DNA of 64,000 nucleotides from a virus, in the IMG/VR virus record IMGVR_UViG_3300044611_002008, positions 35,837-99,836 of that record; one strand, given 5' to 3'. Below the pieces are notes generated by a model. It did no database searches. It was not told the origin of the DNA and saw only the letters and a program-made list of their open reading frames with translations. Position numbers and translations under genes: made by a program. The stretch's first letter is position 1, and each line of letters starts with the position of its first letter. Shown in pieces: positions 1 to 33,055 of this stretch.

Positions 1-2
1 CG

Positions 3-443
3 ACCATAACCGTTAACGCCCAGGCCACTTCTGGAACAACAGGATTGACAGGACAAAGATATCTTCTTTTCCCAGCTCAGTCCGCAACAAACGGTGGAGC
101 AGGAATATCTCTTGGGACGAACGGCCTCAGTGTTTATGAGCATGGAAACGCTTATCTCGCCCCTTTATTATCTCATGCTGTAGCCATATCCAATACTATT
201 TTTACTAATATTGTCATTGTTTATACCAACAAACTGCCAAGTCTGTATATCAATAATGTTTTTATAAAAAATGGGTTTACGAGTCTGAGAGCAAGCGTTT
301 TTTATAATTCGGGAGAGTTTATCGCCGGTCAATACGGTCTTTTCTCGGGTGCTGTGAGTAGCGTTAAAATATATAACAAATCGCTTTCGGCAAGCGAGAT
401 ATCTCAAAACTTCAATGCTCTCCGAAACAGGTATGGTGTTTAA
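3..443 (+). CDS. LamG-type tail adhesin, C-terminal part (5' end outside window)
   Basis: The reading frame is open from the first bases, so the gene begins before the window and only about 146 residues are visible. The visible part looks like a concanavalin A-like (LamG/Laminin_G_3) jelly roll: alternating strands, a GLFSGAVSSVKIYNKSLS-type strand pair and the ending SEISQNFNALRNRYGV. This last stretch closely matches the end of the next gene (SEISSNFNQLRGRYGV), so the two are tandem paralogues. Such domains in phages usually sit in tail fibres or capsid decorations and bind carbohydrate. The stop overlaps the next start (TAATG). A TTG near base 45 is an internal codon and not a real start. 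The domain call is inferred from sequence pattern. Confidence 0.65.
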   Translation, partial: TITVNAQATSGTTGLTGQRYLLFPAQSATNGGAGISLGTNGLSVYEHGNAYLAPLLSHAVAISNTIFTNIVIVYTNKLPSLYINNVFIKNGFTSLRASVFYNSGEFIAGQYGLFSGAVSSVKIYNKSLSASEISQNFNALRNRYGV

Positions 444-1237: not shown

Positions 1238-1250
1238 TAAATTAATAGAT

Positions 1251-1281
1251 TTGACATTATTTAAGAACTCATTAGTATAAT
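1251..1281 (+). promoter_or_regulatory. Sigma70-like promoter
   Basis: A perfect TTGACA (1251-1256) is followed, after 19 bases, by a perfect TATAAT (1276-1281). The spacing is two bases longer than ideal. Transcription would begin about 14 bases before the ATG at 1302. It lies in the only gap before the propeller and methyltransferase pair, which suggests that this pair can be expressed separately from the late structural operon. Confidence 0.5.
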
Positions 1282-1301
1282 TTATACTCTAGAGAATTCT
1301 T

Positions 1302-3532: not shown

Positions 3533-3608
3533 ACGCCGTTGATTATATGGTGTATTTTTTATTAGATGCTATCAAAACTTTGAACCCGTATATTTAAAAG
3601 GCTAATTT

Positions 3609-11829: not shown

Positions 11830-14800
11830 ATGTCACAATCGTTTAATTTAACAGCCCAGCTAAATTTAAGAGGACCATCTAATGTTAGAAATATTGTATC
11901 TGATATTAGAAGACAATTGGGGTCAATTTCCGCAGATGTGAACTTACGATTGGACCAAAATGCCTCACGCAATGTTACTCAGCTCAATGCTGCTTTAAGA
12001 AATCTTAACAATACTTTTGGCACTACTCAGACAGCGGCCAGAAATGCTGCAAATGCTATTAGAGATTTTTCTCAGGCGGTCGGTAATGCCGGAGTGGCTA
12101 ATTTACCAAGACAGCTCAATAATGTCGTTACCGCTACACAAAGAGTCGGAGCTACTAGCACCACAGCGGCCAGACAGTTAAATGTTGCTAGAACAGAAAT
12201 GGAAGAGTTCGGAAGACAGTCGGCCTTAGCTATTAGAAGATTTGCTGCATTTAGCTTAGCCACCGGCGCCGTATTTTCTTTTACAGGAGCCATCAATAAA
12301 GGCATAGCCGCATTTATCGAGTTTGATAAAGAATTCGTTAAGCTGCAACAGGTTACAGGCGAATCTGCAGATGGTCTTAAGAGACTATCGAATACTATTA
12401 CGTCATTATCTGTTGATTTTGGAGTAGCATCAGGAGACCTTATCAAAGTATCATCAACATTAGCCCAGGCCGGTTTAAGCGCCAAAGATACCGAGAGAGC
12501 ATTAAAAGCATTGGCTCTTAGTGCTTTAGCTCCGTCTTTTGATGATATGAATAAAACGGTGGAAGGCTCTATTGCTTTGATGAGACAGTTCGGCATTGGA
12601 GCGTCTGATCTAGAAAAAGCGCTAGGCTCTGTTAACTCGGTTGCTGCCAGATTCGCAGTAGAAGCCAGCGATATTATAGCCGCTATTCAGCGTACTGGTG
12701 GAGTGTTCGCTTCTGCTAGTAATGGAGTTAGTCAGGGTACCGATGCTCTTAATGAGTTTATAGCGGTATTTACTAGTATACGAGCCACTACTCGTGAAAG
12801 CGCAGAAACTATTGCTACTGGTTTACGTACTATTTTTACTAGAGTTCAAAGAGGAGGAACTATAGAGGCTCTGAAAGAATTCGGGGTTAATCTAACCGAT
12901 GCAGAGGGCAAGTTCGTTGGAGCATATAAGGCTGTTGAGTTATTGTCTAGAGGATTAAATCAAATAGATCCGAGAGATTTAAAGTTTTCTCAGATTGTTG
13001 AGGAGCTTGGCGGCTTCCGTCAGATCGGTAAGGTTATTCCATTAATTCAGCAATTCGGAACAGCCCAGGAAGCTTTGAAGGTAGCACAGACTGGGCAGGG
13101 GTCTTTGGCGGCAGACGCGGCAACAGCCCAGTTGTCCCTGGCTAATCAGATAGCCAAAGTAAGAGAAGAATTTACTGCTCTTGTAAGAGATATTGGTGGC
13201 TCAGATACTTTTCAGACACTGGCAAAGGGAGCGCTGCAGCTCGCTAGTGGTTTGATTCAAGTAGCGGATAGCGTTAAAGGAGTTTTGCCTATTCTTGGAT
13301 TGATGATGGCCGTTAGAGGAGCTAGTGTAGCGACTCAATATGGTTCTGGTTTTATAGGAGGTCTTCGTAGAGGCAACGCTGGGGGAGCAGCTGCTCCTAG
13401 AAGAAATGCTTATGGGGGTTATATAAGTAGATATAAAAAAGGAGGACCAGTAGATGTTCCAGTTGCTTTGATGCCGGGAGAGGCCGTGGTATATCCTGAA
13501 GCGGTTAAAGAAGTAGGCGTATCTAAATTAAGAAAAATGAATTATGCAGACAGAAAACCTATGGCCAAAGGAGGTAAGGTTGGATTGGTTCCAGGATCTG
13601 GCAATACCGATAGTTTTTATACTACTCTTCCAGAAGGTAGTTTTGTTATAAGAAAAAAGGCTACGGAAGCACTCGGTGGACCAGAAGGTATTTTAGGGTC
13701 TTCGGGTTATCAATACGGCGGTTCTGTGCAAAGATTCCGCGGAGGATCTTCTTCCGGTCTCAAGGAGACGCAAAGAACTCACATAGGACCAAAAGTTCCT
13801 CTTAGTTATCGAGAGGCGATGGCAGCGAAAAAAAGAGGCACCGGTTCACTAAAGGTGGTGAGTGGTAAAACAGAAAGACAAATTAATTTTGAACCCAATA
13901 TATCTACGTTAATAAATCAGAGACTTAGAAGAAAGACAGGAAAAACTGGAGTTACTAAAAAAGAGTTAGTCGAAGACATCTCAAAAAGATCCCCCGAACA
14001 ACTTTTTGGCGATGGAGGCGTACCATCTGTTATATTCAAAGAGTTGCTTGCATCAAAAAAGCTTGAGGGTCTTAAGACGGCCTTGTTGAGAGGTGTTAAG
14101 TCTAGATCTGTACCTCAGACTCTAAGATCAGACTCAGAATTAGACTTTATTCTGGAAAAGAATATTAAACCATATTTATCTAAAATTAATACTCAGGTCG
14201 GTAGTTTGTGGGATGAATTAATGCAGTACCAGGCGCTCACCAATCCTAGAGAGGTTGGTGGTCGTACAACCCTCCCAGCTGTTAAAAAGGTTTTAGGAAA
14301 ATCTTTCGGCTCAACTTTTGCATCTGGAGGTCTTATACAAAAATTTGCCAGAGGTACCTCTAAGCCTTTGGAGGCCATGGGTAAGGCTGATTTACTTAAG
14401 GAAGCAGAAAGGCTAGGAGTCAATATTCCTATAGAGCTTAGACGTTTTCTAGATCCAAGAGCAAAGGGGTCTGAACAGACCAGAGCAAAGATCATTAAAG
14501 ATCTACAAGAAAAAAGAACTATCACCAAAACATCCGAAGAGAATATTGCCAATAGGGCTAAAAACAGAAAATTAGCCGTTGTTGGACTACGAGGCGATAC
14601 GTCCTCTTCTACCGTTACGACTCCGGGACTTAAAGATAAAACAGGAAGACAAAGATTACGAGGGGTCCCAGCGACCCTGCAAACCGGCAGTCTACCAAAT
14701 GATCTAGCGACACAAGTGGAAGATATTATACGTTCTCAATCAGAAAGCATAGTAGCTCAAATAGGTCAAGCTATTGCCAAAGCCGCCGGAACAACACCTA

Positions 14801-17800
14801 TTACGGACCAAAAAAGAATTAGTGAAATTTTAACTAAACAGTTACCCAATTTATCTGGATTGATGTTTGAGAGCGGATTGGCTGTTGCTGGGGCTCCATA
14901 TGATCCTAAATCAAAAGCTATTGATTTTAATATGGGATTAGGTAAAAAATTAGCAAACCTTTTTGGAGTAGATCCTAAAGCATTAACAGACGCCACAAAT
15001 GATGCAACAAAAGAACAGGCTAAAAGAAAACTTACAAAAGGACAATTTGATAGAGGTCGTAGAGATAAGTTAAGGACTAAAAGATTATCTAGAGCTCTTG
15101 GTGGTTTTATAGCTATGGCTAAAGGAGGCATGCCTTTAGTAGACGATCTCCCCAACGCTCCTGGATCTATGTTGCCGATGCCTGGTATGAAACCTGGTTC
15201 TCCATTATATGAAATAATACGTAATGGAGGAGGGGCTATTGATTATGATAGGACTTTGCAAAGAACCACTGGAGATGCAGCATATGCAAGCGCAAAAACT
15301 CCAGAACAAAAAGAAGCGGTTTTAACCAAATATTTCAGAGACCCCCAAGCAAGAATCAAAGATGCTCAAAGTGCTAGATTAACACAATTTGGCAAACAAT
15401 TACAAGAGCTAGTCAAAAAGGGCGTTATACAGCCGAAAAACTTATCTATAATTAGTAAATCTAGTAGAACTCCTGGATTAGCTGAGCATATTAATCAATT
15501 ATTCGGTATACCTGTTCAAAATATGGTATTTACCAGAGGAGGTAGCAAATTACCCGCTCTTGAAGCACTAAGAACTAAAGGGCCTAGAATAAATAGAGTA
15601 GCTAGGGCTTCTGGCGGAGAAGTCCCCATCATGGCTCAGGAAGGGGAATATGTTATTAATAGAAAATCCGCAAAAGCTATAGGATATGGCAATCTTCATA
15701 CATTAAATAAATATCATAGTGGTGGAATAGTACAAAGATTTGCTAGAGGTTCCGATTCTCCTCTTAAGATGGCTATGTCAGGGCAGGGTAGGGTTCAAAT
15801 AGCCAAACAATTGATGGATCAGGGCATGTCTGCTGCCAAAGCATTGGCCGAGGCAACTAAAGCTATTGAGTCTATGTCTCAGGCGGCTCAACAAACGGCT
15901 GCGAGTCTTAAAAAACAATCTCAGAGCGTTGGTTACAGAGGTATGAATGTGTTAGCCGGTAGAGGAGTGGATATTACTACCGGAGGCGTTCTTGATCAAG
16001 CAAAAGAAAAAGAATATAGAGACAATCAAAGAGCTAATAGGGTTGTAAGGAGAGCTTCTAGAACAAGATTAGCTGTTGATACTAATGCTTATGGTCCTTT
16101 GCTGCCTGGCCAAAAGGGTGTTGTTACCAGAACTCCTAGCGCTATAGATAATGCTAGAAACGAAGCCGTTCAATCGGTATTAGGCAGAGAACGAGCTGGC
16201 GGAGCGGGTTCAGTAAAACAAATGATGAGAACTCAATTATCGAATGATAGAAGCTCCCTCAGAGACAGAGTAGCAGCAAGATTCAAAGACAGATACGATG
16301 CCGCGTCCGATCCAGCAGAAAAACAAAAGGTTCAAGATAGAGCTAACAAAGTATTTGCTAGAGCTAATCAATCATTAACGGCAAATGCTCAACAAAATTA
16401 TGTACAGCAAATCAATGCTAAGATGCAGATTGCTCAACAAGCCGCTGCTGATGACGCTGCTGCTAGAATTCGTATTGCTAATTTTGCTAAACAAAGCGCC
16501 ACTGCGGCACAACAACAGCCAACGCTATTTCAAAAAATTACTCAGGGAATTAGTAAAATGGCGACGGCCGCACAAAAGTCTGCTGGTTTTGGCGGCGGAT
16601 CAGGAGGAGGACTAATACCTTCTGGCAGCAGAGGAGCAAATATGATGGCCCAGGCTAGAGATGCTAGGGCTCAAGGTTTACGAGGTCAGGCTTTTAGAGA
16701 TAGCATGGCAGGATCGGCTGGCGGAGGTATAGGTAGTAAAATAGGAAATGCGGCTATGGGGCTTTCCTTTGCCATACCAATGATCGCAGATCAGTTTACG
16801 ACAGCAGACCCAAAAACAGCAGAGCAGGCTAAGAACAATGCTATGATATCTGGTAGTAGCACAGCTATTGGTAGCGCAGCTATGCTTGCCTCTATGGGTC
16901 CTGTTGGCATAGCTGCTGGTATAGTAGCCGGAGCAGCAGGATTAGCTAAAGCATTTACAGACGCAGAAAATGCAGCAAATGATTTTAATAGAGGTTTAAA
17001 GGTAGATAAATTAGAGCAAACGCTTGAGGCAGCAGCCAAGTCCCTAGATAAATTCTCTAAAGACATAAAGAACAACGTATTTGCTACAGACGCCAAGAAA
17101 AATGTAGTAGAAGCCACTAAACAAGCCCAAGCTATCACAGACTCAGACTCACAAACAGTAAAAAGAGGACTATTTAATTTTTTTGACACTGCCGATAATG
17201 GTACGAGCTCAGAGAAACGAGCGGCAGCAGAAAGATCTCAAATATTGGATAAACAAGGGATAATGGCATATTTGCGTTCTACAGAGATGTTTGGTGGGGA
17301 AGACGCTAAATCCAACCGGGCGTTTTCAATGAGTCAAAATATACCAGAACTATCTAGAGAAAGAGCGAAGAATTTTACCGGAGCGGCTGATGCCTCCAGA
17401 CAATTTATAACAAGTAAAATCAGATCAGGATCTTCTATTGAAGGTCTCAAATCGGACAAAGATTTTGCTGGTTTCACTAAAAGCTTAGCTCTTGCAGACG
17501 CAGCGCTACAAGAACAAATTCTAACTATACAAAATAATACTTCGTTAGAAGAAAATAAAAAGAAAGCTCTCATAGATAGTACTATTGCGACAGTAGCAGA
17601 CGCTAAAGCCAGAGAAATTCAGTCTCAAACTCTAAAAGAGATGGATCTAGAAGCTCTTAGCAAGTCTACTATTGTTTTACAAAATAGCTTAGAGAGAATG
17701 TTTCAAAATATGGAACAGTCTATTATGGCGAATGCTTTTGCGCTAGATAAGCTTACCGCTAGTGCAGAGCTCACCACCTCAGCACTATCAGGATCTGCCA

Positions 17801-20800
17801 GGGTAGGATCTGTAAAGCTAGATAGTATAAACGTATTGCAAAATAGTAGAGCTTATGGGGCTAATGCGAATGCGGGAGCTGTAGACCAGGCAGCTTCTAT
17901 GTTCGGCAGCGAAGCTAAGTCAATGAAAGGGATATTACAGGTTTCTGGTAGACTTGAGGATACGTTATTATCTACAATCAATAGTACTTTAAAAAATAAT
18001 CCATCCGCAAGTAACGAGGCCGTTGGTATCAAATTAGACCAAGCTATATTTAAAGCTTTAAACGACTTAGAGCTGCCACCAGACCTATCAACTAAATTAT
18101 CTGGCGAGGTAAAGAGCGCCGTACAGGATATGAGGAAATCTGGGGATGATAAAATTGATTTTAGTCAATTGGTAGAAAAAATTCCACAACTCGGAAACGT
18201 TGTAGACAGTGCAAAGAGAGCTCAAGAAACTGCGATACGAGCTCTAGAAAACTGGCAGAATGCACTAAACGATTATGCCAATACAACTAATCAATTGATA
18301 GATCTACAAATTGATAGTAATCAAAAGCTAAGACGAGCTACTGATACCCTGGTTTCTGGGCAAAATGAGCTTAATAGAGTTTTAGGTAAAACAGTATCAT
18401 TACAAAGCGTAGTGGCTGACACTAGAGCTGCAACTGCGTCTCAGACCGGAGGCCCAACATCTGCTGTAGATATTAGAAGACAGATACAAGATTTAGAATT
18501 GACCAGACAATCTCAACAATCAAGATCCGACGCCGCCGCTCAAAAGGGTTTTTCTGGTAAAGACGAATTTATGATGATGCAGGGAAGGCTGAGGGAAACA
18601 AGTGTTGCGTTAAGAGAGTCATACGATGCGCTTAAAGGCCTTAGCGAAAACACTACTGTTGCTAGTGCAGCGTTAAATAAAATGTCGGAGATTCAACAGA
18701 AGCAACAAGCTGGAGTAGCCATCATTGAGAAATTGGTCACCAGCACCCCAGCAGAAATTAATAAATTTAATCAGGCCTTGGCTAGATTAGATAACAATAT
18801 GAAGGGTCGGGCTAATTTTGGGACCAATGCCGACCAGAGACGCGACAGCCTAGAAGCTTTTAACATGATCATGCCGTTTCTCGGAGATAAGCAGAGTGGT
18901 ATGAAGGCCAATGTTCTAGAATCTATGCTTAGAGAATCTGGCATAAACTCTTCGCCAATGATGCAGCAAGTGATAGATTCTTTAAGAAATCCAGAAGCCG
19001 ATCCACAAATGGCAGAAGCTATAGGTATATATAGAGAAGCGCTAGCTGAACAAGCATTTGCAAATGAACAGTTAGCTGCCTTGAATCAGCTTATTGCGGA
19101 GAATAATTCTGACACCGCCGCTGTTAAATTAGCTACAGCTATCGGAGGTGTCTCATTAAACTTTGAAAGCAGGCAACTGCAAGATATTAATGATAATATT
19201 AAAAATTTAATTACTGTTGTTAAAAATAATAGGGAGGATAAGAAGCCAGCAGCAGCTGAGGCAGAGATGCTCGCAAGAGGAGGTGTTGTATATGCTTCCG
19301 CGGGTCAGTTAATTAATTTTGCTCCAAAGGGGACGGATACAGTACCGGCTATGTTGACCCCAGGAGAATTTGTTGTCAATAGATCTGCTACTCAAAAAAA
19401 TCTACCTCTTTTAAAATCTATTAACAATGGATACTCGAATGGTGGAAGAGTACAGTACTATAATCAAGGAGGTTTAGTATTTGGCGGAGGTTGGGGATTG
19501 GATCAAAAGCAAGATGCGGAAAAGCAGGCCGGGATTCAACAACAAGAGACAGCGACACAATATCCAGACATATTATCTCTTAACGCTAATCCATATGACC
19601 ACATGACAAAGGCCGTCGCTCTGCCGGGGTATTTTTACGCCTCGAATCCGGCACCAGGAGATATTTCAGATTGGTTCAGTCCTAAAGTTGGACGGAAGCC
19701 TTTGGTGAGTATCGGCGCCAATGCGAGTTTAGGAGCATCTTATGATACTATTAGTATGACTACAGAGGATGATCGACCTACGATTGAGAAAAGAACTACT
19801 TTTACAGGTCCCATAGATGTGGGTTATGTGCCGCAATCAGATTTTTTTGATAATGTAATATCTGAGAGAGATATTCAAAGAAAAAAACATATCACAAAAA
19901 ATCAAATAGAGGACTATAAAAATAAATTAGAAACGCTGTTAAAACTTAAAAGATTTGTTGTGCAAAGTTCTGATGCCGGTACGTTTATGGGGTCTATTGA
20001 CACAGGTTCAAAAAAAATAGCCACAAAAGTAGACGCGGATAATAGACCTAAAATAGAGCCAACTATTGAAGTGGGTAAATATGTCAATAGAGGATTGTCT
20101 AGTGTGCCACTAGTAACACTGAGCGGTCTAACAAAAACCACTAACGGTCTTTATGGCCTATACTCAGTAGCAGATCTAGAAGGAGAAGGGTCTTCTGGTC
20201 AAAATACTAATGCTGGAAACCCTTATGGTTTTACAAATAGATCAACAGCCACTACTATCATTTCTCCGGACATGAAGGTGGTTGCCGGGTTATCCAATAT
20301 GAAGCATGATACTGTTGATCCGTCTATAGGCATGGCATTATCTAAATACGTCACTAATTATGACGGTATGGCTAAGGCTACTGGTCCGATAATGCAAAAC
20401 AATATCCAGTCATTATCAAGAGTATTTGATGCTTTGTCTCAAACTAAGATTCCAGAGATCGAGGCAGACGGTTCGATTTCTGAACCATTGAAAGAAACCG
20501 ATTCTTCCTTAAAGAATAAAACATATATTAACAAATTACAACAGCTATTATCTGGTGCAATATTTTCGGCTCAATTCGATGAGACAGAAATTAAGGGTAA
20601 AGACAATGTTAAACCACCAATAACATTATTTAATTTAACGGCCGATAAATGGAATAATTTAGCTAATTCTTTTAAAAATTATCAGCCTGCGCCGCCCACC
20701 AATAGCTATGCTGAAAACAGTAGTAATTTTATACCTATAAATCCAGCGCAAAAATCACTACCGTGGATAGCTGCTGGATTTAATCATGTAGATGCTATCA

Positions 20801-22938
20801 ATAACCTAAAGGGAGAATATCAAAAAAATAATACATCTAATATAAAAGTTACATCAGGTTCCGTCGAAGATGAGTTCATGAAATTTAACTACAAAACTAT
20901 TCAAGGAGGATTTGGCACCAATAAAACATTAGATCAGTCATTAGGAGCCATTAAATATGTTGTTGCTGATTTAGATGCCAACAGCAAAGAACAGCCGCTA
21001 AACCCATTCAAAGATTTAGACCCTGTTAATTTAATTGGTAGATCGATATATGCGGATAGTATCGAAACCTTAAAAGGGCGTATTCAACCAATAATTAATG
21101 CAGTGACAGGAGGTCTCAATACAGATAATTTGCCGCCAGTGCCTTACGCCACTGTGCAAAAAATAAATAGCACTGATCTTGGTGCGCTAGATTATTCCGA
21201 AGACACAAAAAATAATGCTTATATGCCAAAGACAGCTGTTCTTGGCGGTAACTTTAATGCTACTAATTACATTAATGAAATTAAAGGATTATTTAATAAA
21301 AAAGAACTAATAGCAGGAGCTGTGGCAGCTGAAACTACTGATAAACGCACTGATGCTGGTATAAAACAAGCAAATATAGAAAATCCGTTGGGTATAGCTA
21401 GGGGCATTATACAGAAAGTACTAGCTCCTATAAGCGGCGTTTTATCGGCATACAATATGAAGCTGATGCCCTTAACAAAAGCGACAGACATATTGCCATA
21501 CGGTAATCTTTTATTTGGTGGGCAAAAGTTTTTTGGACAAGCTGTTATGGAAAAAATGAAAGGGAGGACTCCGCCAGAGGCGTTGTATAATGTTTGGGGA
21601 GCAATAGGAGCTGCCGCACAAACATTTTTAAAACTAGGAGCAGGAGATTCTCAAGGATTGTCTTCGATGCTAGGCGTTAGCTTTGACGGTAAACCAGACG
21701 CTACAATACCAGACAAAGTTAATCAATACGCAAAGTTTTTAGCTAAGCAAGGAATGATGTCCCAGGGTCTGGGGGCAGATATCTTGGATAAAGAAATAAA
21801 TAAAGACAATCAAAAGGCAATCGAGGGGGCTTTTGGGGATAAAAACCAATCGATTTTTGAGGCTACTGGACTAGAGAAAACAACTTGGAATAAACAATCT
21901 GATAGAACTTCTCCCAAAACCATATTAGATTTGGGTAAAAAGATACTGAATCCATACTCTATGTTTCCTACGGAAACAAGAAATAATCTCTTTGGTATTT
22001 TAGAGAAAGAGCTTGCTAATCAAAAGGTTAACCAGGGCGTTATTGATACTATCAAGAAGGTTCGATCTTTCTACAATACTTTTTTGGATCCTTTTGTGAA
22101 TGGTGATGGTCAAGCCGGCAATGATAAATGGAGACGTGGTTTTGATAGCCTATACCCCGACGCCAATTCTGCTTTACAGCTATTAACGAATGGAGCATTT
22201 GGAAAATTACCAGATTATAATATGGCGTTACAGCTCCAAGCAAAGAGAAAAGCCTTAGCAGAGGAAGTCAAAAAGCCGCAGAAGAAAGCCAGAGGGGGCA
22301 TAATCTATGCTCAAACAGGCACTCTAGTTGATTATCAGCCCAGAGGCACCGATACCGTTCCAGCCATGTTGACCCCCGGAGAATTTGTGGTCAATAGAGC
22401 GGCCACTCAAAAACATCTACCTGTCTTAAAAGCTATTAATAGTGGCCAATATTCTACTGGTGGAATGGTTAATTATCTTAATCAAGGGGGTATTATTATA
22501 CCTCAATATCACTCTAATATCCCAAATGTATCGTCTACAAATAAGACTGTAGGTGTATCTAATTTACAGCTGGGCTTGGCCCCATCGGCTGTAAGTGCTT
22601 TGGAAAATTTTAATCGCGCTTTTGCTCAAAATGCAGCATTACTAAATATTAATTTAGATGATAAGAGTCAAAAGGCTATTGATAATTTTACAATTAGATT
22701 ACAGAATGTGGCTAATACTATCAGTGGTTTGGCTATTCCAGAAAATATTCAAATTACAGCACAACATAAAGTAGAGGTTATAATAAATGGCGGAGAGGCA
22801 CTAAAGGGAATGAGCGAAGGAATGAAAGAATATGTTGTTTCTTCGATCAATACTGCCGTCAGTAGGCTTAATGTTACTACAGAGAATGCTCTTGGGGAAC
22901 AATCTAATCAAATACTTAAAGGTAGTTCATCAGTATGA
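11830..22938 (+). CDS. Giant tail tape measure protein
   Basis: 3702 residues. Residues about 138-497 match the TP901-type tape measure core (FDKEFVKLQQVTGESADGLK, then IRATTRESAETIATGLRTIF, then GGFRQIGKVIPLIQQFGTAQ). A Gly-rich box with the core PGEF/AVVNR recurs near residues 545, 590, 1262, 2495 and 3500; in the last two copies GTDTVPAMLTPGEFVVNR is identical. Between boxes are segments that resemble enzyme folds: around 1000-1040 (F1013-E1014, G-A-P-Y-D, D1032) and 1138-1245 (D1138-x-D1140-x-T1142, S1209, K1240). A Gly/Ala hydrophobic segment lies near 1670-1713 and coiled coils follow to about 2400. The length would imply a tail of up to about 0.5 micrometre if mostly helical, but globular inserts reduce this. 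The next gene starts at its stop (ATGA). Confidence 0.9.
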   Translation: MSQSFNLTAQLNLRGPSNVRNIVSDIRRQLGSISADVNLRLDQNASRNVTQLNAALRNLNNTFGTTQTAARNAANAIRDFSQAVGNAGVANLPRQLNNVVTATQRVGATSTTAARQLNVARTEMEEFGRQSALAIRRFAAFSLATGAVFSFTGAINKGIAAFIEFDKEFVKLQQVTGESADGLKRLSNTITSLSVDFGVASGDLIKVSSTLAQAGLSAKDTERALKALALSALAPSFDDMNKTVEGSIALMRQFGIGASDLEKALGSVNSVAARFAVEASDIIAAIQRTGGVFASASNGVSQGTDALNEFIAVFTSIRATTRESAETIATGLRTIFTRVQRGGTIEALKEFGVNLTDAEGKFVGAYKAVELLSRGLNQIDPRDLKFSQIVEELGGFRQIGKVIPLIQQFGTAQEALKVAQTGQGSLAADAATAQLSLANQIAKVREEFTALVRDIGGSDTFQTLAKGALQLASGLIQVADSVKGVLPILGLMMAVRGASVATQYGSGFIGGLRRGNAGGAAAPRRNAYGGYISRYKKGGPVDVPVALMPGEAVVYPEAVKEVGVSKLRKMNYADRKPMAKGGKVGLVPGSGNTDSFYTTLPEGSFVIRKKATEALGGPEGILGSSGYQYGGSVQRFRGGSSSGLKETQRTHIGPKVPLSYREAMAAKKRGTGSLKVVSGKTERQINFEPNISTLINQRLRRKTGKTGVTKKELVEDISKRSPEQLFGDGGVPSVIFKELLASKKLEGLKTALLRGVKSRSVPQTLRSDSELDFILEKNIKPYLSKINTQVGSLWDELMQYQALTNPREVGGRTTLPAVKKVLGKSFGSTFASGGLIQKFARGTSKPLEAMGKADLLKEAERLGVNIPIELRRFLDPRAKGSEQTRAKIIKDLQEKRTITKTSEENIANRAKNRKLAVVGLRGDTSSSTVTTPGLKDKTGRQRLRGVPATLQTGSLPNDLATQVEDIIRSQSESIVAQIGQAIAKAAGTTPITDQKRISEILTKQLPNLSGLMFESGLAVAGAPYDPKSKAIDFNMGLGKKLANLFGVDPKALTDATNDATKEQAKRKLTKGQFDRGRRDKLRTKRLSRALGGFIAMAKGGMPLVDDLPNAPGSMLPMPGMKPGSPLYEIIRNGGGAIDYDRTLQRTTGDAAYASAKTPEQKEAVLTKYFRDPQARIKDAQSARLTQFGKQLQELVKKGVIQPKNLSIISKSSRTPGLAEHINQLFGIPVQNMVFTRGGSKLPALEALRTKGPRINRVARASGGEVPIMAQEGEYVINRKSAKAIGYGNLHTLNKYHSGGIVQRFARGSDSPLKMAMSGQGRVQIAKQLMDQGMSAAKALAEATKAIESMSQAAQQTAASLKKQSQSVGYRGMNVLAGRGVDITTGGVLDQAKEKEYRDNQRANRVVRRASRTRLAVDTNAYGPLLPGQKGVVTRTPSAIDNARNEAVQSVLGRERAGGAGSVKQMMRTQLSNDRSSLRDRVAARFKDRYDAASDPAEKQKVQDRANKVFARANQSLTANAQQNYVQQINAKMQIAQQAAADDAAARIRIANFAKQSATAAQQQPTLFQKITQGISKMATAAQKSAGFGGGSGGGLIPSGSRGANMMAQARDARAQGLRGQAFRDSMAGSAGGGIGSKIGNAAMGLSFAIPMIADQFTTADPKTAEQAKNNAMISGSSTAIGSAAMLASMGPVGIAAGIVAGAAGLAKAFTDAENAANDFNRGLKVDKLEQTLEAAAKSLDKFSKDIKNNVFATDAKKNVVEATKQAQAITDSDSQTVKRGLFNFFDTADNGTSSEKRAAAERSQILDKQGIMAYLRSTEMFGGEDAKSNRAFSMSQNIPELSRERAKNFTGAADASRQFITSKIRSGSSIEGLKSDKDFAGFTKSLALADAALQEQILTIQNNTSLEENKKKALIDSTIATVADAKAREIQSQTLKEMDLEALSKSTIVLQNSLERMFQNMEQSIMANAFALDKLTASAELTTSALSGSARVGSVKLDSINVLQNSRAYGANANAGAVDQAASMFGSEAKSMKGILQVSGRLEDTLLSTINSTLKNNPSASNEAVGIKLDQAIFKALNDLELPPDLSTKLSGEVKSAVQDMRKSGDDKIDFSQLVEKIPQLGNVVDSAKRAQETAIRALENWQNALNDYANTTNQLIDLQIDSNQKLRRATDTLVSGQNELNRVLGKTVSLQSVVADTRAATASQTGGPTSAVDIRRQIQDLELTRQSQQSRSDAAAQKGFSGKDEFMMMQGRLRETSVALRESYDALKGLSENTTVASAALNKMSEIQQKQQAGVAIIEKLVTSTPAEINKFNQALARLDNNMKGRANFGTNADQRRDSLEAFNMIMPFLGDKQSGMKANVLESMLRESGINSSPMMQQVIDSLRNPEADPQMAEAIGIYREALAEQAFANEQLAALNQLIAENNSDTAAVKLATAIGGVSLNFESRQLQDINDNIKNLITVVKNNREDKKPAAAEAEMLARGGVVYASAGQLINFAPKGTDTVPAMLTPGEFVVNRSATQKNLPLLKSINNGYSNGGRVQYYNQGGLVFGGGWGLDQKQDAEKQAGIQQQETATQYPDILSLNANPYDHMTKAVALPGYFYASNPAPGDISDWFSPKVGRKPLVSIGANASLGASYDTISMTTEDDRPTIEKRTTFTGPIDVGYVPQSDFFDNVISERDIQRKKHITKNQIEDYKNKLETLLKLKRFVVQSSDAGTFMGSIDTGSKKIATKVDADNRPKIEPTIEVGKYVNRGLSSVPLVTLSGLTKTTNGLYGLYSVADLEGEGSSGQNTNAGNPYGFTNRSTATTIISPDMKVVAGLSNMKHDTVDPSIGMALSKYVTNYDGMAKATGPIMQNNIQSLSRVFDALSQTKIPEIEADGSISEPLKETDSSLKNKTYINKLQQLLSGAIFSAQFDETEIKGKDNVKPPITLFNLTADKWNNLANSFKNYQPAPPTNSYAENSSNFIPINPAQKSLPWIAAGFNHVDAINNLKGEYQKNNTSNIKVTSGSVEDEFMKFNYKTIQGGFGTNKTLDQSLGAIKYVVADLDANSKEQPLNPFKDLDPVNLIGRSIYADSIETLKGRIQPIINAVTGGLNTDNLPPVPYATVQKINSTDLGALDYSEDTKNNAYMPKTAVLGGNFNATNYINEIKGLFNKKELIAGAVAAETTDKRTDAGIKQANIENPLGIARGIIQKVLAPISGVLSAYNMKLMPLTKATDILPYGNLLFGGQKFFGQAVMEKMKGRTPPEALYNVWGAIGAAAQTFLKLGAGDSQGLSSMLGVSFDGKPDATIPDKVNQYAKFLAKQGMMSQGLGADILDKEINKDNQKAIEGAFGDKNQSIFEATGLEKTTWNKQSDRTSPKTILDLGKKILNPYSMFPTETRNNLFGILEKELANQKVNQGVIDTIKKVRSFYNTFLDPFVNGDGQAGNDKWRRGFDSLYPDANSALQLLTNGAFGKLPDYNMALQLQAKRKALAEEVKKPQKKARGGIIYAQTGTLVDYQPRGTDTVPAMLTPGEFVVNRAATQKHLPVLKAINSGQYSTGGMVNYLNQGGIIIPQYHSNIPNVSSTNKTVGVSNLQLGLAPSAVSALENFNRAFAQNAALLNINLDDKSQKAIDNFTIRLQNVANTISGLAIPENIQITAQHKVEVIINGGEALKGMSEGMKEYVVSSINTAVSRLNVTTENALGEQSNQILKGSSSV
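13440..22490 (+). repeat. Five dispersed PGEFVVNR-type boxes in the tape measure gene
   Basis: Copies lie near 13440-13500, 13592-13670, 15607-15735, 19270-19475 and 22288-22490. The last two are the best preserved (about 65 residues, from ARGG to NQGG) and differ in many synonymous bases, so the duplication is old. Each carries Gly-rich flanks and a positively charged VNR/IRK end. Similar boxes occur in other phage tape measure proteins; their role is unknown. Confidence 0.8.
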
Positions 22939-25813: not shown

Positions 25814-27037
25814 ATGATTCAAAAAAGACAGATTTCGCAAAACCTATGTTCTAGTGGCGTAGCTATCACCTTTAGTGGAATACCAGTAGATATAAGTAAT
25901 GATTATAGATTAAGCTTTTGGAAAGATAGTTGCATCCCTCAGCAGTCAGATATTATTATTAATCCAACAGGATATCAAATTAGACCAGCTTCTAACACAA
26001 TAGACGCTGTGGTATATGTATCCTCTAATACTGCTTATACCGTAGATAATTCTTCTTCATCCGTTATAGGGTTGAGCGTTGTAGATATTGCTTCTAGTGG
26101 CGAAGTATATAGAGATTACATACATATTTCATGTGGTAATTTATGCAGCGATGCGGGTAAGCCGTTGGACACCGCTGTTCCAACCCGTACTCCCACCCCT
26201 ACCCCAACCAACACTACCACACCAACCCCAACAACCACGATCACCCCAACAGTCACCAACTCGCCGTCTGTGACGCCAACAGTGACGCCGACAATATCGA
26301 TAACACCATCCAAAACACCAACTAGGACGCCTACTCCTACCAGAACAAATACTCCTACTGTGTCTATAACTCCTTCATTTACCCCATCGAGCACAGTAAC
26401 TCCAACCAATACTCCGACAAATACTCCTACTGCTTCGGTTACAGTTACTCCTTCGATTACCCCATCTAACACCACCACTCACACCCCTCCACCTACGCCT
26501 GGTCTTACAAGTACTCCAACCCCAACAGTTACTCCAACTATATCCTTAACTCCCACCCAAACTATCACCCCTAGTATTACTGCTACTAATACCGTTACGC
26601 CCACCCAGACGCCTACGTCATCGGTCACCCCTACTATTTCACAAACACCAGAACCAACACCAACGACCACCCCTACGCCAACACTCACTCCGACAATGAC
26701 TCCTTTATATACTAGGCCTAGTTTTGCGGTTACTTTTGATCAAATTAATTTTTCAGGTAAGTGCGATACCGGTATATTAATATCCGCTAATGTCTCTGGT
26801 GTACCAAATACCGTTTATAACTATAGCTTTAATGTAGAATCTATTGGTAATAATAACAATATTAATAATATTTTTATTGAGCCAAGAACCGGCCAATTTG
26901 CAATGTCCAATAACAATAATAAAATTTTTACTTACGTTTATACACTAGAAAAAATAGGCTCTTTTGTAGTTAGTTGTAGTGTTTCAGATAGCACAAGCAC
27001 AGCACAAAGTTTGACAACAATTGCTTGTCAAAGTTAA
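25814..27037 (+). CDS. Two Ig-like domains joined by a long Thr-Pro linker
   Basis: 407 residues. Residues 1-115 are an Ig-like domain ([13 protein letters not shown] to [10 protein letters not shown]). Residues 120-298 are a Thr-Pro linker with [15 protein letters not shown] and TPTPT units. Residues 300-407 are a second Ig-like domain ([20 protein letters not shown], then PNTVYNYSF, then [17 protein letters not shown]). An AAGGA site precedes the ATG. The linker would hold the two domains apart by tens of nanometres if extended. Function is inferred as adhesion. The opposite strand shows long open frames of Gly-Val repeats here, which are only the reverse of the linker. Confidence 0.65.
26170..26705 (+). 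repeat. Long Thr-Pro linker repeat
   Basis: About 178 residues of TPT, TPS and VTP units with varied codons. It is the longest of several such linkers in the tail-tip genes (others near 29866-30140, 29457-29503, 35047-35184 and 35326-35430). Confidence 0.8.
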
Positions 27038-27125: not shown

Positions 27126-27941
27126 ATGGCTAATTTATTTATTAAATTCCCCAGCACACAACAAGAGCCCCCGATGCCAGAAACAGTAAATACCTCACCT
27201 TCGCTGTCTGTTAAGTTTGATTTTTCTCATTATGGTATAGAGGGAAATTCTAAAACTATTACTTTGCCAAATGCCCAATGTCTTAAGGGCTCCTTTATCG
27301 TTGTAGCGGAGGCTTCTAACTTAATACCGGGTAGACAATATACTATATTATTTGAATTATTGAACCCGTCATCTACTCGACAGGTGTTTGACCCGGCAGC
27401 TATAACGATCTTTGCTTCGACACCAACGCAAAAATTTACCACGGTAGCTAACGTAGATCCACAGTATAATTATATTTTAAAAGCAACCATTAATCAGACA
27501 GATACTGGTATAGCTGCCTCTGATATGGTAGCCGCTAGCTGTGCTTCTATTCCAGCGGTACCTACACCAACCCCAACCGCTAGGCCTGTCACTGCATCTA
27601 TGCCTCGTGTAAACTTTGATGCTGGTCCGGTCATGATGGTAAATCCTCCCAATAGGTGCAGAGAACAACTCAACATTATTTGCACCATATCAAATGCCCG
27701 TATCGGAACTACATATAAATACGACTTTGTTTGTCTTACTAGCGATGCGGCGCCACTATTGTCACCGGCTACCGGCTTTGTGACCGCAGGCTTCTCCGAA
27801 CAAAACATAAATACCGTAGTGACCGTTAATCCATCCAAAGGCAATATGGTTAGTTTACAGGTTAGAGTATTTGATGCTAAATATCCTGATATAATACTAG
27901 ATGAAGATATATTACTAATTCAATGCTATGGGTGCGAATAA
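27126..27941 (+). CDS. Protein with two Ig-like domains
   Basis: 271 residues. Domain 1, about residues 20-140, includes CLKGSFIVVAEASNLIPGRQ followed by YTILFEL, and a closing ASDMVAASC. A short PTPTPTARP linker follows. Domain 2, about 155-271, runs from MPRVNFDAGPVMMVN through TTYKYDFVCL and SPATGFVTAGFSEQNINTV to DEDILLIQCYGCE. These match the recurring pattern x-Px-Gxx-Y-x-Y...PxSG...D-x-I-x-x-x-C-x-x-C. AGGAA lies 5 bases before the ATG. The 88-base gap upstream holds no convincing promoter. Stop and next start overlap (TAATG). Likely part of a tail-tip fibre assembly. Confidence 0.65.
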   Translation: MANLFIKFPSTQQEPPMPETVNTSPSLSVKFDFSHYGIEGNSKTITLPNAQCLKGSFIVVAEASNLIPGRQYTILFELLNPSSTRQVFDPAAITIFASTPTQKFTTVANVDPQYNYILKATINQTDTGIAASDMVAASCASIPAVPTPTPTARPVTASMPRVNFDAGPVMMVNPPNRCREQLNIICTISNARIGTTYKYDFVCLTSDAAPLLSPATGFVTAGFSEQNINTVVTVNPSKGNMVSLQVRVFDAKYPDIILDEDILLIQCYGCE

Positions 27942-29506
27942 TGAGTAATTTAATTGTAAAATTTGCAGAAAAAAATATTTTAGTGAATAACGAAGGATGT
28001 TGTTCTACCGGAGTATCTAGCATAGTTACCGTATCGGGTATGATACCCGGACATAAATATTATTGCGAACTATCTTCTATATCTAGAGGCTCTATTGTTT
28101 TTGCTCAAAACAATTTCTATGTTATGACACAGTCTCTAAATCAGCCTATGAATATACCAATAGGATTTTCTTTAGAGGGGTCTAGATCTTATATTATTAA
28201 ATTCAAAATTACGGACCTTGATTATAGAAAAGACGCAAAGTATTGGCTGCCTAATCGCAATGAATGGTATAAGAGCGCTTATTATAATGCAGATACAGAA
28301 GAATATTCTCAATACGCAACTATGAGCAATAATAATCCTGTTGCAGTAACCAGTAATACTTCTGGCGACGGTTCTGCTGGGGCATCGGGCAATTTTGCGA
28401 ATTTTGGAAATACAGCCGATTGGAATGGTCAAGACGGCAATTTGACTACCGTTGGTACCAATGGCGGGCCGAGTTATTATGGTACCTATGATCAAAATGG
28501 AAATATTAATGAATGGCTTGATGATATATCGACCTCTCTTAAACCATATACTGGTGGTTCTTGGAATAGTCCGATCTCTGAACTTGGACAAATAGTTGAA
28601 AACAAACCGGTTTTTGAGTCTAGTTCTTTAGGACTTCGTATTGCTGCCGAGGTTAATCAAACCCTTAGTATTGATACATCTACTTTTTCCATGGTATCAG
28701 GATCTTTTCTAGGCATGAACGATGCGGATGATAATGGGATAGGCTCTGTTCCGCATTCTTTTTATATGAAAAAGCATCCGGTAACTAATAATGAATATAT
28801 GGTATTTTTAAATTCCGTCGCTGCGAAATCTGATAGATATGGCTTATACAATAGTAAAATGACCACAGACCCTAGAGGCGGCATTACTAGATCATCGAAT
28901 ACTAATCAAACATTTAGCTATACTTGTAAGCCCAATATGGAAAATAAGCCAGTGAATTTTGTGAGCTGGTTAGATGGAGCAAGATATTGCAACTGGTTAT
29001 ATAATACCTCTATTGATCCCAATAGTGTTGAGACGGAGAAGGGGTCGTATGAAATGCCCGCTGATGCTACTAATGTGCCGTATGTGGGCTTCAATTATGG
29101 TGAAGATATTCTTACGGTAGAGTGCGGCAGACCATCTGCGCCAGACGTTGAATTTGTTACGGATTCCAAAGAACTTATGAAGAGTTGTGGTCAGTATAAG
29201 AGTGTGGTTGCTTCGATTAAAAATGCTAAAATTGGTAGATCATATTCTTATCTATTTTCTACTCCTGATGATTATTTTGCTAATATATCGCCTAAAAGCG
29301 GAACGATAATAGCTGGTAATAATATTCAAAATATTAATACAGTATTTAGTTATAGTGGGTCTCTTAAGAAAATTAGCTTGAAGCTAGAGGTAACAGATTT
29401 ATTAGATAATATAAAAACAGATACAATCTTGTTTTTTGATTGCGATACGTGTTTTCCGACTCCTACGCCCACCCCGACCCCAACACCTACGCCAACTAAT
29501 ATATAA
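27941..29506 (+). CDS. Ig-like protein with inserted, permuted FGE/C-type-lectin domain
   Basis: 521 residues from the ATG at 27941; an in-frame ATG at 27923 lies inside the previous gene. Residues 1-95 start an Ig-like domain (GCCSTGVSSIVTV, then MIPGHKYYCELSS), whose last strand returns only at 382 (VGFNYGEDILTVECG). Between, residues 96-381 resemble an FGE-sulfatase domain in swapped order: the usual C-terminal half first (YWLPNRNEWYKSAYYN, then ADWNGQDGN, then GTYDQNGNINEWLD, then GGSW, ending GLRIAAE at 231-237), then the usual N-terminal half (FSMVSGSFLGMNDADDNG from 249, then FYMKKHPVTNNEYMVFLN, then KPVNFVSWLDGARYCNWLYN). A second Ig-like domain and a TP tail finish the protein. The catalytic Cys pair of FGE is not evident, so binding is inferred. 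Confidence 0.7.
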   Translation: MSNLIVKFAEKNILVNNEGCCSTGVSSIVTVSGMIPGHKYYCELSSISRGSIVFAQNNFYVMTQSLNQPMNIPIGFSLEGSRSYIIKFKITDLDYRKDAKYWLPNRNEWYKSAYYNADTEEYSQYATMSNNNPVAVTSNTSGDGSAGASGNFANFGNTADWNGQDGNLTTVGTNGGPSYYGTYDQNGNINEWLDDISTSLKPYTGGSWNSPISELGQIVENKPVFESSSLGLRIAAEVNQTLSIDTSTFSMVSGSFLGMNDADDNGIGSVPHSFYMKKHPVTNNEYMVFLNSVAAKSDRYGLYNSKMTTDPRGGITRSSNTNQTFSYTCKPNMENKPVNFVSWLDGARYCNWLYNTSIDPNSVETEKGSYEMPADATNVPYVGFNYGEDILTVECGRPSAPDVEFVTDSKELMKSCGQYKSVVASIKNAKIGRSYSYLFSTPDDYFANISPKSGTIIAGNNIQNINTVFSYSGSLKKISLKLEVTDLLDNIKTDTILFFDCDTCFPTPTPTPTPTPTPTNI

Positions 29507-29521: not shown

Positions 29522-32500
29522 ATGAGTAGCGTTAAAATTAGTTTCGGTAATAAAATAGTACTTAAAGCTGATACTCCGAGCTGTTGCTCTGTAGGACTCT
29601 CTATACCTATTTTGCTTGAGAATCTAATTCCTTATGATACATACACAGTAGAATATAGCTCCATAGGTCCCGGCTCAGCCTCGTTCGCTAGTGCGTCAAC
29701 CGAGATAATAGCCTCCGCATCATCAGAATCTATAGACAATATAGTATATTTAGAAGGTTCCGAAAGCTTTGTTATCAAAGCCCGCGTAACTATTAACGAT
29801 AATGGTGTTATTAAGACCCTATCAGAAGATATATTGGGTATAGATTGTGGAGGACTACCACCAGCTAAGCCTTCTCCAACTCCAACCTCAACCGTAACCA
29901 AGACTCCAACGCAAACACCCACTAAGACCCCAACAAATACTCCAACTGGTACACAGGTTCCTAATACACCCACACCAACCCCTACCACAAGTGTTACAGC
30001 ATCAGTCACGCCAACAATTACTGTAACATCATCAAACACCCCTACTCCTACTCCTACAGCGTCTGTTACGCCCACTATTAGTGTTACTCCTTCTGTAACA
30101 CCCAGTATAACCCCAACACTTACTCCATCGCCAACCAGAGGCTTGCCCAAAATCAGCATTAGGCTCGGTAATGACTCTGAATCTTGCGGCTCGGATGATC
30201 TAGTTATATATACCACTATCAGTGGACTATTACCAAATACTACATATAAATATGCTTTAAATTTACCGGCTGGGCTAGAAGGGGTTCCTAATTTTGGCAC
30301 TATCAATAGCTCTTCATCAGGATTCGCCACCTGTAAGAATTATTTGATCTATCAGAGTCAATTATCTAATAAAGTATGTGGCTTAACAAATTATCCTTTA
30401 ATATATAGTGTTTATCTAACAGACAATACGCTGCTTAGAACATACGCTATTAATCTTACATGCGATTCCACAGATTGTCATTGTCCTAATTTCACAATCT
30501 CTGGCACCATACCGGTGATAGACGGACCCTCTGTAACACCCACGCCCACCAGAGAAGCCCTATCTATTCCAGGGGTAGGAGACTTGGGTTCTTTACCTAG
30601 ATTCCTGTGTCCATCTATAATTACTAAGAAAAAATTAAGCGGTAATAAATTCGTTGTGGATTTACTATCTACGAACAATTATGAGATTAATTTAACATAT
30701 AGTTTTTATGGATCCCCAGAAAAGCTGTCTCTCTATGATCTTGATGGTACAGAATTATACAATAGTGGATATATTGGTACTGTAGATAAAGACGATAATA
30801 ATGAGTATTTATTTTGTGCGGGTATAGATCGCAAAAATCATACCTATGGTACATATGACACTATTAAAATACCTAATAGGGGATCGAGATATATTGTTTG
30901 TATCTTGGAGTCTGCGTGTGACGAAAGCACAGAATGGAAGATTTCGTTCTCTTGTGCTCCGGTACCAACACCTACTCCCACCTCTACAGTAAAACCATGT
31001 CCACCTTGTCCATCGTCAACCCCAGCACCTACCACTACGCCCACTAGCGACACTGGCTGTTCATATAGATTTAATAATTTTGTTGATTCTGATGCCAGAA
31101 AAGAGAAGAAGTTTGCTGTAGCCTGTAGCGATGTAACAGATACGGATCTTACTAGTCCAATTTCTATAGATAAGCCAATTGATGCAGCTATAGTTGCTAA
31201 TACCTTATTATTAGCGGGATCGTCGATCTGTGTTGGTGTTCCGTATACCAATGTAGCAAGTAAAATATCTTTATCTAAGATTAAAAATAACGGTTTAGAT
31301 ATTTCGTTCGGAGTATCCGGGTCCACAACCCATTCCTTTAAAAACGATATCGGCGCTCAAGTTAGTGTGAACGCTAAGAAAATTCTACCTCAAGGCGGTA
31401 AGTTTCTGGTTGTTAGCTATACCAGTGGTAGCGCTGTGATATCAAGACATTTTGCTTCAACAGGTTCTATAGACACGACCTTTGGAAACAGAGGCTTTTT
31501 AGAGATATCTGCTATCGAAGACACAAAAATAGTAGGAATAGGGGACGCTTTAATAGTAAATAATAATATTATATTGTTCTTAGAAACTTATGATATAGTT
31601 AATAAAAAATATACATATAGCGCAGCTAGTATTTCTGGTGCTGGTCGAATCAATACTTCGTTTGGTACCGGAGGCATTGTGAACATAGACGCCGGATCGG
31701 TTTCTACTCAGTATCAGATTAAAAGGGCTGCTGTAATAGATCAAAAATTATTAGTTGTTGCACAAAATAAAAACGAAACAGGATCTTCGGTTGTTGTCGT
31801 GTCCCGCATAAATCTGAATGGTTCTGTTGATACTAGTTTCTATAATAATGGTACTCTTAAGATCCAACCCTCTGATCTGATTGTCGACCCCTTGATAAAA
31901 ACAGAGCCGATGCTCAAAACATGTCTCATAAATAATGAAGGCATATACTTAGCAATAACATATGCTGATAGTAATATGGTTGGAGTATGCAAATACAAAT
32001 ATCAAAATGGTAAAGACGGATCTTGGAAACTTGCGATACCACAGCCGTATAGCGGAGCAGTAACGGTTTTACCAGAATATGATGCGTCAATGTTTGTAGA
32101 AGATGGTCAATCATGGTATGTTGGTTATAATATAGCTTACAACGAATATACTATCTCAGACACGGAATTCAATAGCCCAATTCCGAGAAAGGGACCCGTT
32201 ACACTTAGAACCGTTGCTGATACTATTAGTCGTAATCAAATACCTTATAGTTTAGATCCAGAACCAATGCAGAGAGAAGTCCTACAAGATATATCGGATG
32301 TCACAGCATCATACGCCCGTAAATCTTATAGATTCGTTATAGCCAAATACAATTTATCATCTGGTAATACGACTCCTGTACTTTTGGGCGGTACAGAGAC
32401 CGATCTATTCGGAAACCAGAGAAAGAATAGGCTTAGTGCTCAAAATATACAGTCTGAGACCATTTCTGCGCTAGTAGTCTATAATAATAAGCTGTATATA

Positions 32501-33055
32501 GTTGGCTTTGGGGGTAACGACTATAACTATTCTTTCAGAGTCGCTAGAAGATCCAAAGACACGTCTGGAGAATTTACTGTTGCTGATACTACATTCGGTA
32601 ATAATGGTTATATAGAATCAGATTTTGATTATCTATGTAATTACGATATAGAAAACATAGAACCTCCCATGTTTGAGGATAATCCCTGTGAAATATTCCC
32701 AACACCAACACCAACCCAGTCGTCTATCCCCGCTTCTGTAACCGTCTCATCCACCGAGTATGGCTGTTCAGGGGGTGCTCCGAGAATTACACTGAATTGG
32801 TTAACTAATAAGGCCTCTTCTGTCGCTCAAGAATATATAGCAAGAATTATTGTACAAGGAACCTCGCCAATCACCACAGTATCTGCTTCTGCTTTAACGA
32901 TTCCGGCTCAGACATTATCTGGATCTATTAATATATCGTTAGCAAATGCCGCTAATTTTAATAATCAGATTTGTCAAATACAAATCTTAAAAACAGACTC
33001 TCTAGATATTTTATATAACAATGCTTTGGTCTTAAACATACCATCGTGTAATTAA
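29522..33055 (+). CDS. Multi-domain tail fibre: Ig-like, Thr-Pro linker and delta-60 propeller
   Basis: 1177 residues. Order: Ig-like domain (1-115, with [19 protein letters not shown] and SEDILGIDC); TP linker (115-207); second Ig-like domain (208-330); an unidentified beta-sandwich (about 360-480) with three Cys; a short TP linker; then about residues 520-1056 with delta-60-type propeller repeats. The propeller hallmark G-S-h-D-T-x-F-G-x-x-G is seen as [23 protein letters not shown] and [12 protein letters not shown] small C-terminal sandwich (1075-1177) closes it. Delta-60/DUF5122 propellers occur in large secreted bacterial proteins; in a phage fibre a host-surface-binding role is inferred. 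An AAGAAGG site precedes the start. Confidence 0.7.

Follow-up and report, generated by a model that had tools for sequence, protein, structure and literature searches.

We found that P0001, a protein of 521 residues encoded downstream of the tape-measure gene of a virus, carries an FGE-type CLec domain whose segments stand in permuted order and which interrupts an Ig-like repeat. Taken as a whole, the evidence makes it very likely that P0001 is an adhesin-like tail protein with a complete, non-catalytic permuted CLec domain at the F–G turn of an Ig-like sandwich, and that this domain is one of a phage-borne set that arose via tandem duplication; the packing of the domain, the duplication and the binding role are inferred. 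The window, i.e., the whole stretch of 64,000 nt analyzed here, covers bases 35837–99836 of a 99.8-kb virus record. P0001 follows the tape-measure gene, and genes around it encode Ig-like repeats and PT-rich linkers, a setting from which we infer (but have not shown) that it is probably a product of the tail-tip/adhesin region, whether tail-tip or fibre-associated. The natural domain is named A-B-C here, where A starts with the N-terminal strand and ends at TE.GAY, B is the xPxxxEWYKAAY part up to YATQS, and C extends from ADWNGQDGN through GNVxEW to GFRxA. The features discussed below are as follows (window positions, with residues of P0001 where applicable).

11830..22938, + strand: tape-measure gene, 3702 aa, upstream of P0001 (PhageMin_Tail PF10145, E = 2.3e-21)
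27941..29503, + strand: P0001, 521 aa, which holds the permuted domain (open frame; stop codon at 29504-29506)
27941..28222, + strand: interrupted Ig-like repeat, N-terminal part, residues 1-94 (Ig-repeat profile match)
28223..29083, + strand: permuted FGE-type CLec insert in the order B-C-A, residues 95-381 (natural-order profile; AlphaFold)
28232..28330, + strand: segment B (WLPNRNEWYK ... YATMSN), residues 98-130 (B profile match)
28391..28648, + strand: segment C (ADWNGQDGN ... GNINEW ... GLRIA), the natural C-terminal part, residues 151-236 (C profile match; aligned to the C-halves of solved FGE-type structures)
28649..28714, + strand: joint from the natural C-end to the natural N-end, residues 237-258, including the first A strand, MVSGSF (gap between the C and A profile matches; model strands)
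28715..29056, + strand: segment A (HPVTNNEYMVFLN ... ARYCNWLYN ... TEKGSY), the natural N-terminal part, residues 259-372 (A profile match)
29084..29128, + strand: the interrupted Ig-like repeat resumes with its final strand EDILTVEC, residues 382-396 (score gain at best when joined to the N-terminal flank)
29180..29443, + strand: second, uninterrupted Ig-like repeat of P0001, residues 414-501 (Ig-repeat profile, 92 bits)
29456..29503, + strand: C-terminal PT-repeat linker of P0001 (sequence)
29522..29857, + strand: uninterrupted paralogous Ig-like repeat in the next gene, used as the empty-site comparison (AlphaFold; structural matches)

Within P0001, the B and C motifs WLP (102-104), GNINEW (187-192) and GLRIA (231-235) precede the A motifs MVSGSF (251-256) and HPVTNNEYM (279-287), and EDILTVEC follows at 388-395. 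The Pfam family FGE-sulfatase (PF03781) was the sole family found in the protein, at 47.8 bits against a cut-off of 23.3, and it matched in two stretches, with profile positions 112–208 lying upstream of positions 34–109 in a six-frame search of the record. A natural-order profile of 276 positions, built from 100 bacterial domains, matched residues 95–235 with its positions 134–276 (100 bits, E = 5e-28) and residues 260–377 with its positions 9–128 (120 bits, E = 4e-34). The two halves thus tile the profile once without overlap, leaving unmatched only 5 positions between them and 8 at the start, and when the domain was rearranged in silico the order A-B-C scored 211 bits, compared with 120 and 145 bits for the other rotations. 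By profile, P0001 therefore carries one essentially complete FGE-type CLec domain in the order B-C-A. Chance is not a serious source of this order and is all but excluded by the E-values of both parts together with the existence of a second B-C-A protein, in locus L070 (see below). The linker from C to A extends over ~14–16 residues by profile extrapolation (about residues 236–251), and this extrapolation and the model strands described below show that the natural ends are joined by a short linker. The plain sequence of the domain reached a single solved chain, 5aoh_A, and aligned its residues 78–143 to chain residues 195–265 and, at merely 1.8 bits, its residues 233–270 to chain residues 74–115; a C-A-B profile of 16 relatives crossed in the same comparison, with positions 184–272 on 76–165 and 34–97 on 198–262 (18.7 and 18.8 bits). 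Domain annotation that depends on segment order breaks such proteins into two partial matches. A 'kinase' label for P0001 (PHROGs, via phrog_18508) was given no weight.

AlphaFold modelling of residues 1–400, based on an alignment of 46 rows of which none covered the Ig part, yielded a mean pLDDT of 75 and a pTM of 0.71. The pLDDT averaged ~90 over residues 101–370, where 10-residue blocks mostly fell between 84 and 97 (the lower ones being 76, 81, 71 and 78), while the Ig part, lacking alignment rows, was modelled poorly (mostly <55). Short strands at 235–237 and 249–252 flank the new C-to-A joint. In a solved relative, the natural CLec ends are the adjacent antiparallel strands β1 and β5 (PMC6328139), and the joint of P0001 lies where β5 and β1 would meet.

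A Foldseek search of the PDB returned TvpA as the top match and the only one below 0.001 (E = 7.5e-4); the 12 best matches were TvpA, CarF, PorN, EgtB and FGE chains, followed from rank 13 onward by kinases and other unrelated rows at a probability of ≤0.2, except for one OvsA chain at rank 19. Sequential coverage of the model was poor, as expected for a permuted chain. A search of the BFVD gave no match at E ≤0.001. VIA-align matched the model to TvpA, CalU17, FGE, EgtB, CarF, PvdO, Mtd and TaqVP (families absent from its listing are not thereby excluded), with Z >4 in 46 of the 47 rows printed, which we take, by name, to be FGE-, EgtB- or DGR-type proteins or PorN. Specifically, model residues 94–238 aligned to TvpA 150–329 (Z 8.6, rmsd 2.2, 119 residues aligned) and model residues from about 98 to 246 to human FGE 220–374 (Z 6.8–7.0), showing, for model against structures, that the B-C half superposes on the C-terminal halves of TvpA and human FGE. 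Some bacterial FGE and TaqVP rows start near the chain N terminus and span almost the whole chain (e.g., 9..302). The VIA-align output gives only the first and last residue, a Z below 8 can reflect a common arrangement, and the structural aligners are sequential, with nearly all aligned residues in the B-C half. That both halves pack into one CLec domain is thus an inference from a confident model; the packing itself is unmeasured, with neither coordinates nor PAE at hand.

The window contains several uninterrupted Ig-like repeats. In the first repeat of P0001, the Ig-repeat profile matches with positions 1–80 of 91 at residues 15–96 and then stops. Against a profile built from eight other repeat copies only, residues 1–93 alone scored 37.0 bits, and 20 joins of the N-terminal flank to the stretch after the insert scored from 35.0 to 48.5 bits, the best being residues 1–95 with 383–400. 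This gain is modest (up to 11.5 bits, the top of 20 joins tried). The 2,000 control segments of 20 residues from the same seven proteins, placed on residues 1–95, had a median of 38.6 bits; 31 of them reached 48.5 bits, and the 12 best cover final strands of Ig repeats that went into the profile. The paralogous repeat at 29522–29857 folds as a sandwich (AlphaFold pLDDT 86.8) that matches Ig-like sandwiches (complement C3 and C4, and PapD-type chaperones) with Z of ~10 over ~100 residues; its last two strands lie at 82–93 and 96–108, and the alignment places the end of the P0001 N-terminal flank in the turn that separates these strands. Uninterrupted paralogues run across the insertion point, and the flanks of P0001 together complete the repeat. 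In sequence, then, the CLec domain interrupts an Ig-like sandwich at its F–G turn, and the last strand of the sandwich follows at 388–395. Because the Ig part of P0001 is poorly modelled, the nesting rests on the paralogues and the modest gain in score. A scan that used the neighbouring protein as its one query sequence, and so reached close relatives only, returned just the two contigs identical to the window and no uninterrupted orthologue in another phage.

These results bear on most of what the initial annotation had read from the sequence alone. Its swapped order of the FGE halves held under profile tiling, AlphaFold and structural alignment, as did its nesting of a permuted lectin domain in an Ig-like domain (sandwich fold of the paralogue, insert at the F–G turn) and its insert at residues 96–381, which we place at ~95–381. 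Two details held in part: the final strand, said to resume with EDILTVEC at 382, has that motif starting only at 388, and the joint, given as about 11 residues (237 to 249), comes to the slightly longer span extrapolated above. As to the checks that it proposed, prediction of residues 1–400 was confident over 101–370 with the Ig part mostly below 55, comparison with FGE and DGR targets placed the B-C half on C-terminal halves, and the A-B-C rearrangement scored 211 bits with the natural-order profile.

Next, we consider how widely such domains occur. Scanning IMG/VR with P0001 returned 8 loci, namely two identical contigs and relatives at 41–47% identity in the order C-A-B. A viral scan with seven C-A-B domains supplied the best 80 of 236 relatives (76 loci), and the same seven-domain query against 84,980 species genomes supplied the best 80 of at least 548 relatives (80 loci). 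Because a C-A-B query would bias the order, two order-neutral viral scans used segment A alone, drawing the best of 214 and 144 relatives and keeping 78 and 79 loci. A B-C-A scan gave 15 loci and no new B-C-A domain. Searched by tblastn with P0001 and a C-A-B domain, 50,697 GenBank phage records gave no match.

Segment profiles were tallied over 338 loci, of which 258 are viral (two from the window's own record) and 80 bacterial. The distinct single units in viral loci comprised 101 C-A-B, 19 A-B-C and 2 B-C-A, in addition to arrays, partial matches and odd strings, while the 80 bacterial loci held 87 single A-B-C units, 7 tandem A-B-C arrays and 15 partial matches, with no permuted unit detected among them by the segment profiles. 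After removal of partial and odd units, 222 complete domains were kept (100 viral C-A-B, 20 viral A-B-C, 2 viral B-C-A and 100 bacterial A-B-C), and all 222, including the 100 that built the profile, scored highest when rearranged as A-B-C. The order-neutral scans yielded 90 distinct A segments: 69 in C-A-B, 13 in A-B-C, 2 in B-C-A, 3 in compound units and 3 without a neighbour. As these tallies come from the best 80 matches each, they are not population frequencies, and short viral A-B-C contigs could be bacterial. Among viral matches, the permuted domains thus form a large phage-borne set, mostly cut at another loop than that of P0001; the permuted form is the commonest there and is absent from the bacterial matches examined. 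BCAABCA-like strings in L331-L336 were not counted as B-C-A and were taken as divergent natural A-B-C arrays, their A segments being weak and split (first A piece, 218-247); this array reading is itself untested.

The second B-C-A protein (L070, IMGVR_UViG_3300016467_000949) is cut in the same A/B loop and is 49% identical to the P0001 domain, with profile positions 135–276 followed by 2–138 of 276. Its domain is flanked by a short N-terminal stretch and by the start of a PT-rich linker, in which the contig ends; no Ig flank was seen there. In the loci inspected, C-A-B domains are edged by PT-, SSS- or TTT-rich linkers. One C-A-B domain lies on a contig of 243,821 bases (L048); no FGS domains were found in the jumbo phages of PMC7824862. 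Neither permuted CLec/FGE domains nor such phage FGE domains are reported in the open-access literature that we searched (titles and the starts of abstracts; most subscription papers and preprints fell outside). The CLec fold is well known as a scaffold on which binding proteins of phages and bacteria vary massively in sequence, and three chain orders of one fold offer material on the origin of permutation, on stability and on the re-orientation of a binding face.

The most likely origin of the permuted domains, and a probable one, is tandem duplication followed by loss of the ends, which is inferred. In this scheme, duplication would give an A-B-C-A-B-C array in which the C-to-A joint is already present, and loss of outer segments from the array would leave C-A-B or B-C-A. 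In P0001, a short linker joins the natural ends, which are neighbours in this fold, and the new ends fall in the natural A/B loop, where the chain enters and leaves via the Ig-like domain. The C-to-A junction of bacterial tandem A-B-C arrays measures 5–11 residues in 6 of 8 cases and 49 and 55 in the others (uncorrected), and these short junctions imply that the fused ends of a permuted domain pre-exist between copies. Profile-corrected gaps between C and A have a median of 8 in the 100 C-A-B domains; for the B-C-A pair the values are 8 and 14. On a quick tree of 169 rearranged domains, segment order needs at least 3 changes, the simplest path being one step from A-B-C to C-A-B and two from C-A-B to B-C-A, and both B-C-A rows fall among C-A-B rows. 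Support for the deep branches of this tree is weak (68 of its 166 inner branches are open) and its root was not inferred; a single origin of the two B-C-A proteins was not rejected (AU test, p = 0.32).

Several other explanations deserve weighing. P0001 could hold two separate incomplete FGE domains, truncated remnants of a tandem array (...B-C + A...) that do not form one domain. Tandem A-B-C arrays do exist in bacteria, the duplication route passes through that very stage, and the packing of the halves is unmeasured; nevertheless, we regard this view as unlikely, since the halves are complementary (profile positions 134–276 and 9–128 of 276), B-C-A recurs in L070 and the other rotation in 101 distinct sequences, C-A-B units are edged by PT- or TTT-rich linkers in the loci inspected, the model is confident over 101–370, and no stop codon breaks the frame across the Ig flanks. 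Alternatively, the A half of one chain might complete the B-C half of its neighbour in an oligomeric fibre. Phage adhesins are often oligomeric, and within the C-type lectin-like superfamily collagen IV NC1 is reported to swap segments (PMC3779223). However, closure inside a single chain is favoured by the short joint (8 residues at the median in C-A-B, 8 and 14 in B-C-A) and by the natural CLec ends, which form neighbouring antiparallel strands (PMC6328139), so that domain swapping appears improbable without being excluded. An assembly join or frameshift is all but excluded. In its favour, the three identical contigs may share reads, and the raw reads are unexamined; against it, the P0001 frame is open, P0001 is identical in two more contigs, the same B-C-A cut occurs in another contig (L070), and a different rotation occurs in many contigs. 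Stretches of 18,213 and 16,657 bases in the IMG/VR contigs of L003 and L004 match the window without a difference. As these contigs may share reads with it, they are weak evidence alone; L070 and the C-A-B set make the better case against an artefact.

It is also conceivable that P0001 is a DGR target like Mtd or TvpA in which the permutation is incidental. The structural matches include TvpA, Mtd and TaqVP, and in 4 of 12 related pairs changes were faster in segment C than in A (39/91 versus 22/124 positions in one of them). Yet RVT_1 was found in neither the window's record (0/1) nor the related records (0/45; some are near-copies, and the records are fragments), and the 12 pairs pooled showed no concentration of changes in C (146/1107, against 189/1563 in A and 25/404 in B), although adenine bias and template repeats were outside the scope of this count. 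Moreover, the variable region is C-terminal in the solved proteins of this subtype (PMC6328139) and would be internal here, with the natural C-end of P0001 at residue about 235 of 521. We therefore consider this explanation very unlikely, and a single permuted CLec domain closed within its own chain remains the preferred reading of P0001.

That reading also bears on several further claims of the initial annotation. Two separate incomplete domains, named there as what would refute it, failed to appear in the sequence, where the halves are complementary (their packing being unmeasured), and a frameshift or assembly join at the joint is not supported, given the open frame, L070 and the C-A-B set. 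Its picture of a single case was incomplete, P0001 being one of a large permuted set, mostly with the other cut. The display of a binding face on a fibre remains an inference without binding data.

The known systems closest to P0001 help to define what is new in it. By profile and fold, P0001 belongs to the family of SUMF1/FGE, SUMF2, EgtB, PvdO and CarF (PF03781), solved members of which match the C-A-B relatives by sequence profile, but its domain is permuted and interrupts an Ig-like repeat of a phage tail-region protein. FGE has a catalytic, copper-binding Cys pair in its C-terminal part, and PDB titles among the VIA-align matches name C336S and C341S mutants. In contrast, P0001 has no Cys at residues 43–328, which include all of segments B and C, and hence lacks the FGE catalytic pair, from which we infer that its CLec domain is non-catalytic. 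TvpA, Mtd and TaqVP, whose structures the model matches, differ in having the natural order, a C-terminal variable region and a DGR reverse transcriptase, whereas P0001 has its natural C-end inside the chain and no RT turned up in the 46 records searched. Among the cellular sequences covered by the scans, the nearest to the phage domains are A-B-C relatives from bacteria (Planctomycetota, Verrucomicrobiota and others), but all 100 of the complete domains kept from them are A-B-C. The permuted adenine methylases of jumbo phages (PMC7824862) are likewise a known fold in permuted order, though of another fold, while the CLec set comprises two rotations of one fold together with nesting.

As to function, the role that we consider most likely, and likely overall, is that of a static binding module on a tail-associated protein; this is inferred, as is the binding of a host-surface ligand, which is suggested by the fold and the position after the tape-measure gene. 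There are no binding data for either. Once permuted, the domain would be held by another loop, and the edge with its natural ends would be closed, again by inference. On a bolder reading, the FGE-type CLec of phages is a ring with exchangeable ends, selected since permutation closes the β5–β1 edge and alters which loops are anchored and which exposed. The basis for this reading is that phages hold three rotations, with C-A-B the commonest among the viral matches, and that the fold both nests and takes domains into its loops; we lean slightly against it. If it were true, phages could re-orient a binding face without changing the face.

Compound units were also observed elsewhere. C-A-B arrays occur, and C-A-B is followed by A-B-C in one frame in L006/L031. 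In L073:1396-10584 (residues 836–1399), a natural A-B-C copy (residues 1015–1293) lies inside segment A of a C-A-B copy, between A profile positions 1–67 (936–1001) and 57–124 (1283–1350). RCC1 repeats (L238:1370-6448) and a laminin-G domain (L253:2747-7813) follow the first half of a C segment and precede the next A; in neither locus did the profile recover the rest of C. About 273 residues separate segments C and A in L183 (ORF 1-3537) and L185 (ORF 1-3612), and FGE-sulfatase is the sole Pfam match of the L185 protein at E 0.01. Among related pairs, L007 and L013 differ in segment C at 39/91 positions and L015 and L013 at 26/95, both pairs differing mostly in C, and other pairs differ mostly in A; module exchange is a possible cause of this C-rich versus A-rich divergence.

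Elsewhere in the window, runs of PT repeats occur in Ig-like-repeat proteins at 25814–27037, 29522–33055 and 33069–35207, and the protein at 29522 shows a weak match, under the cut-off, to a DUF5122 propeller. A proprotein convertase P-domain (PF01483, E = 3.3e-8) is encoded at 4140–5054, upstream of the tail genes. Capsid and portal families of the T4 type matched nothing, but neither did the controls, so this absence carries no weight. On the minus strand, at 61504–63132, a DNA polymerase match is limited to profile positions 622–1053 of 1190 (phrog_405), and this polymerase may be split between genes.
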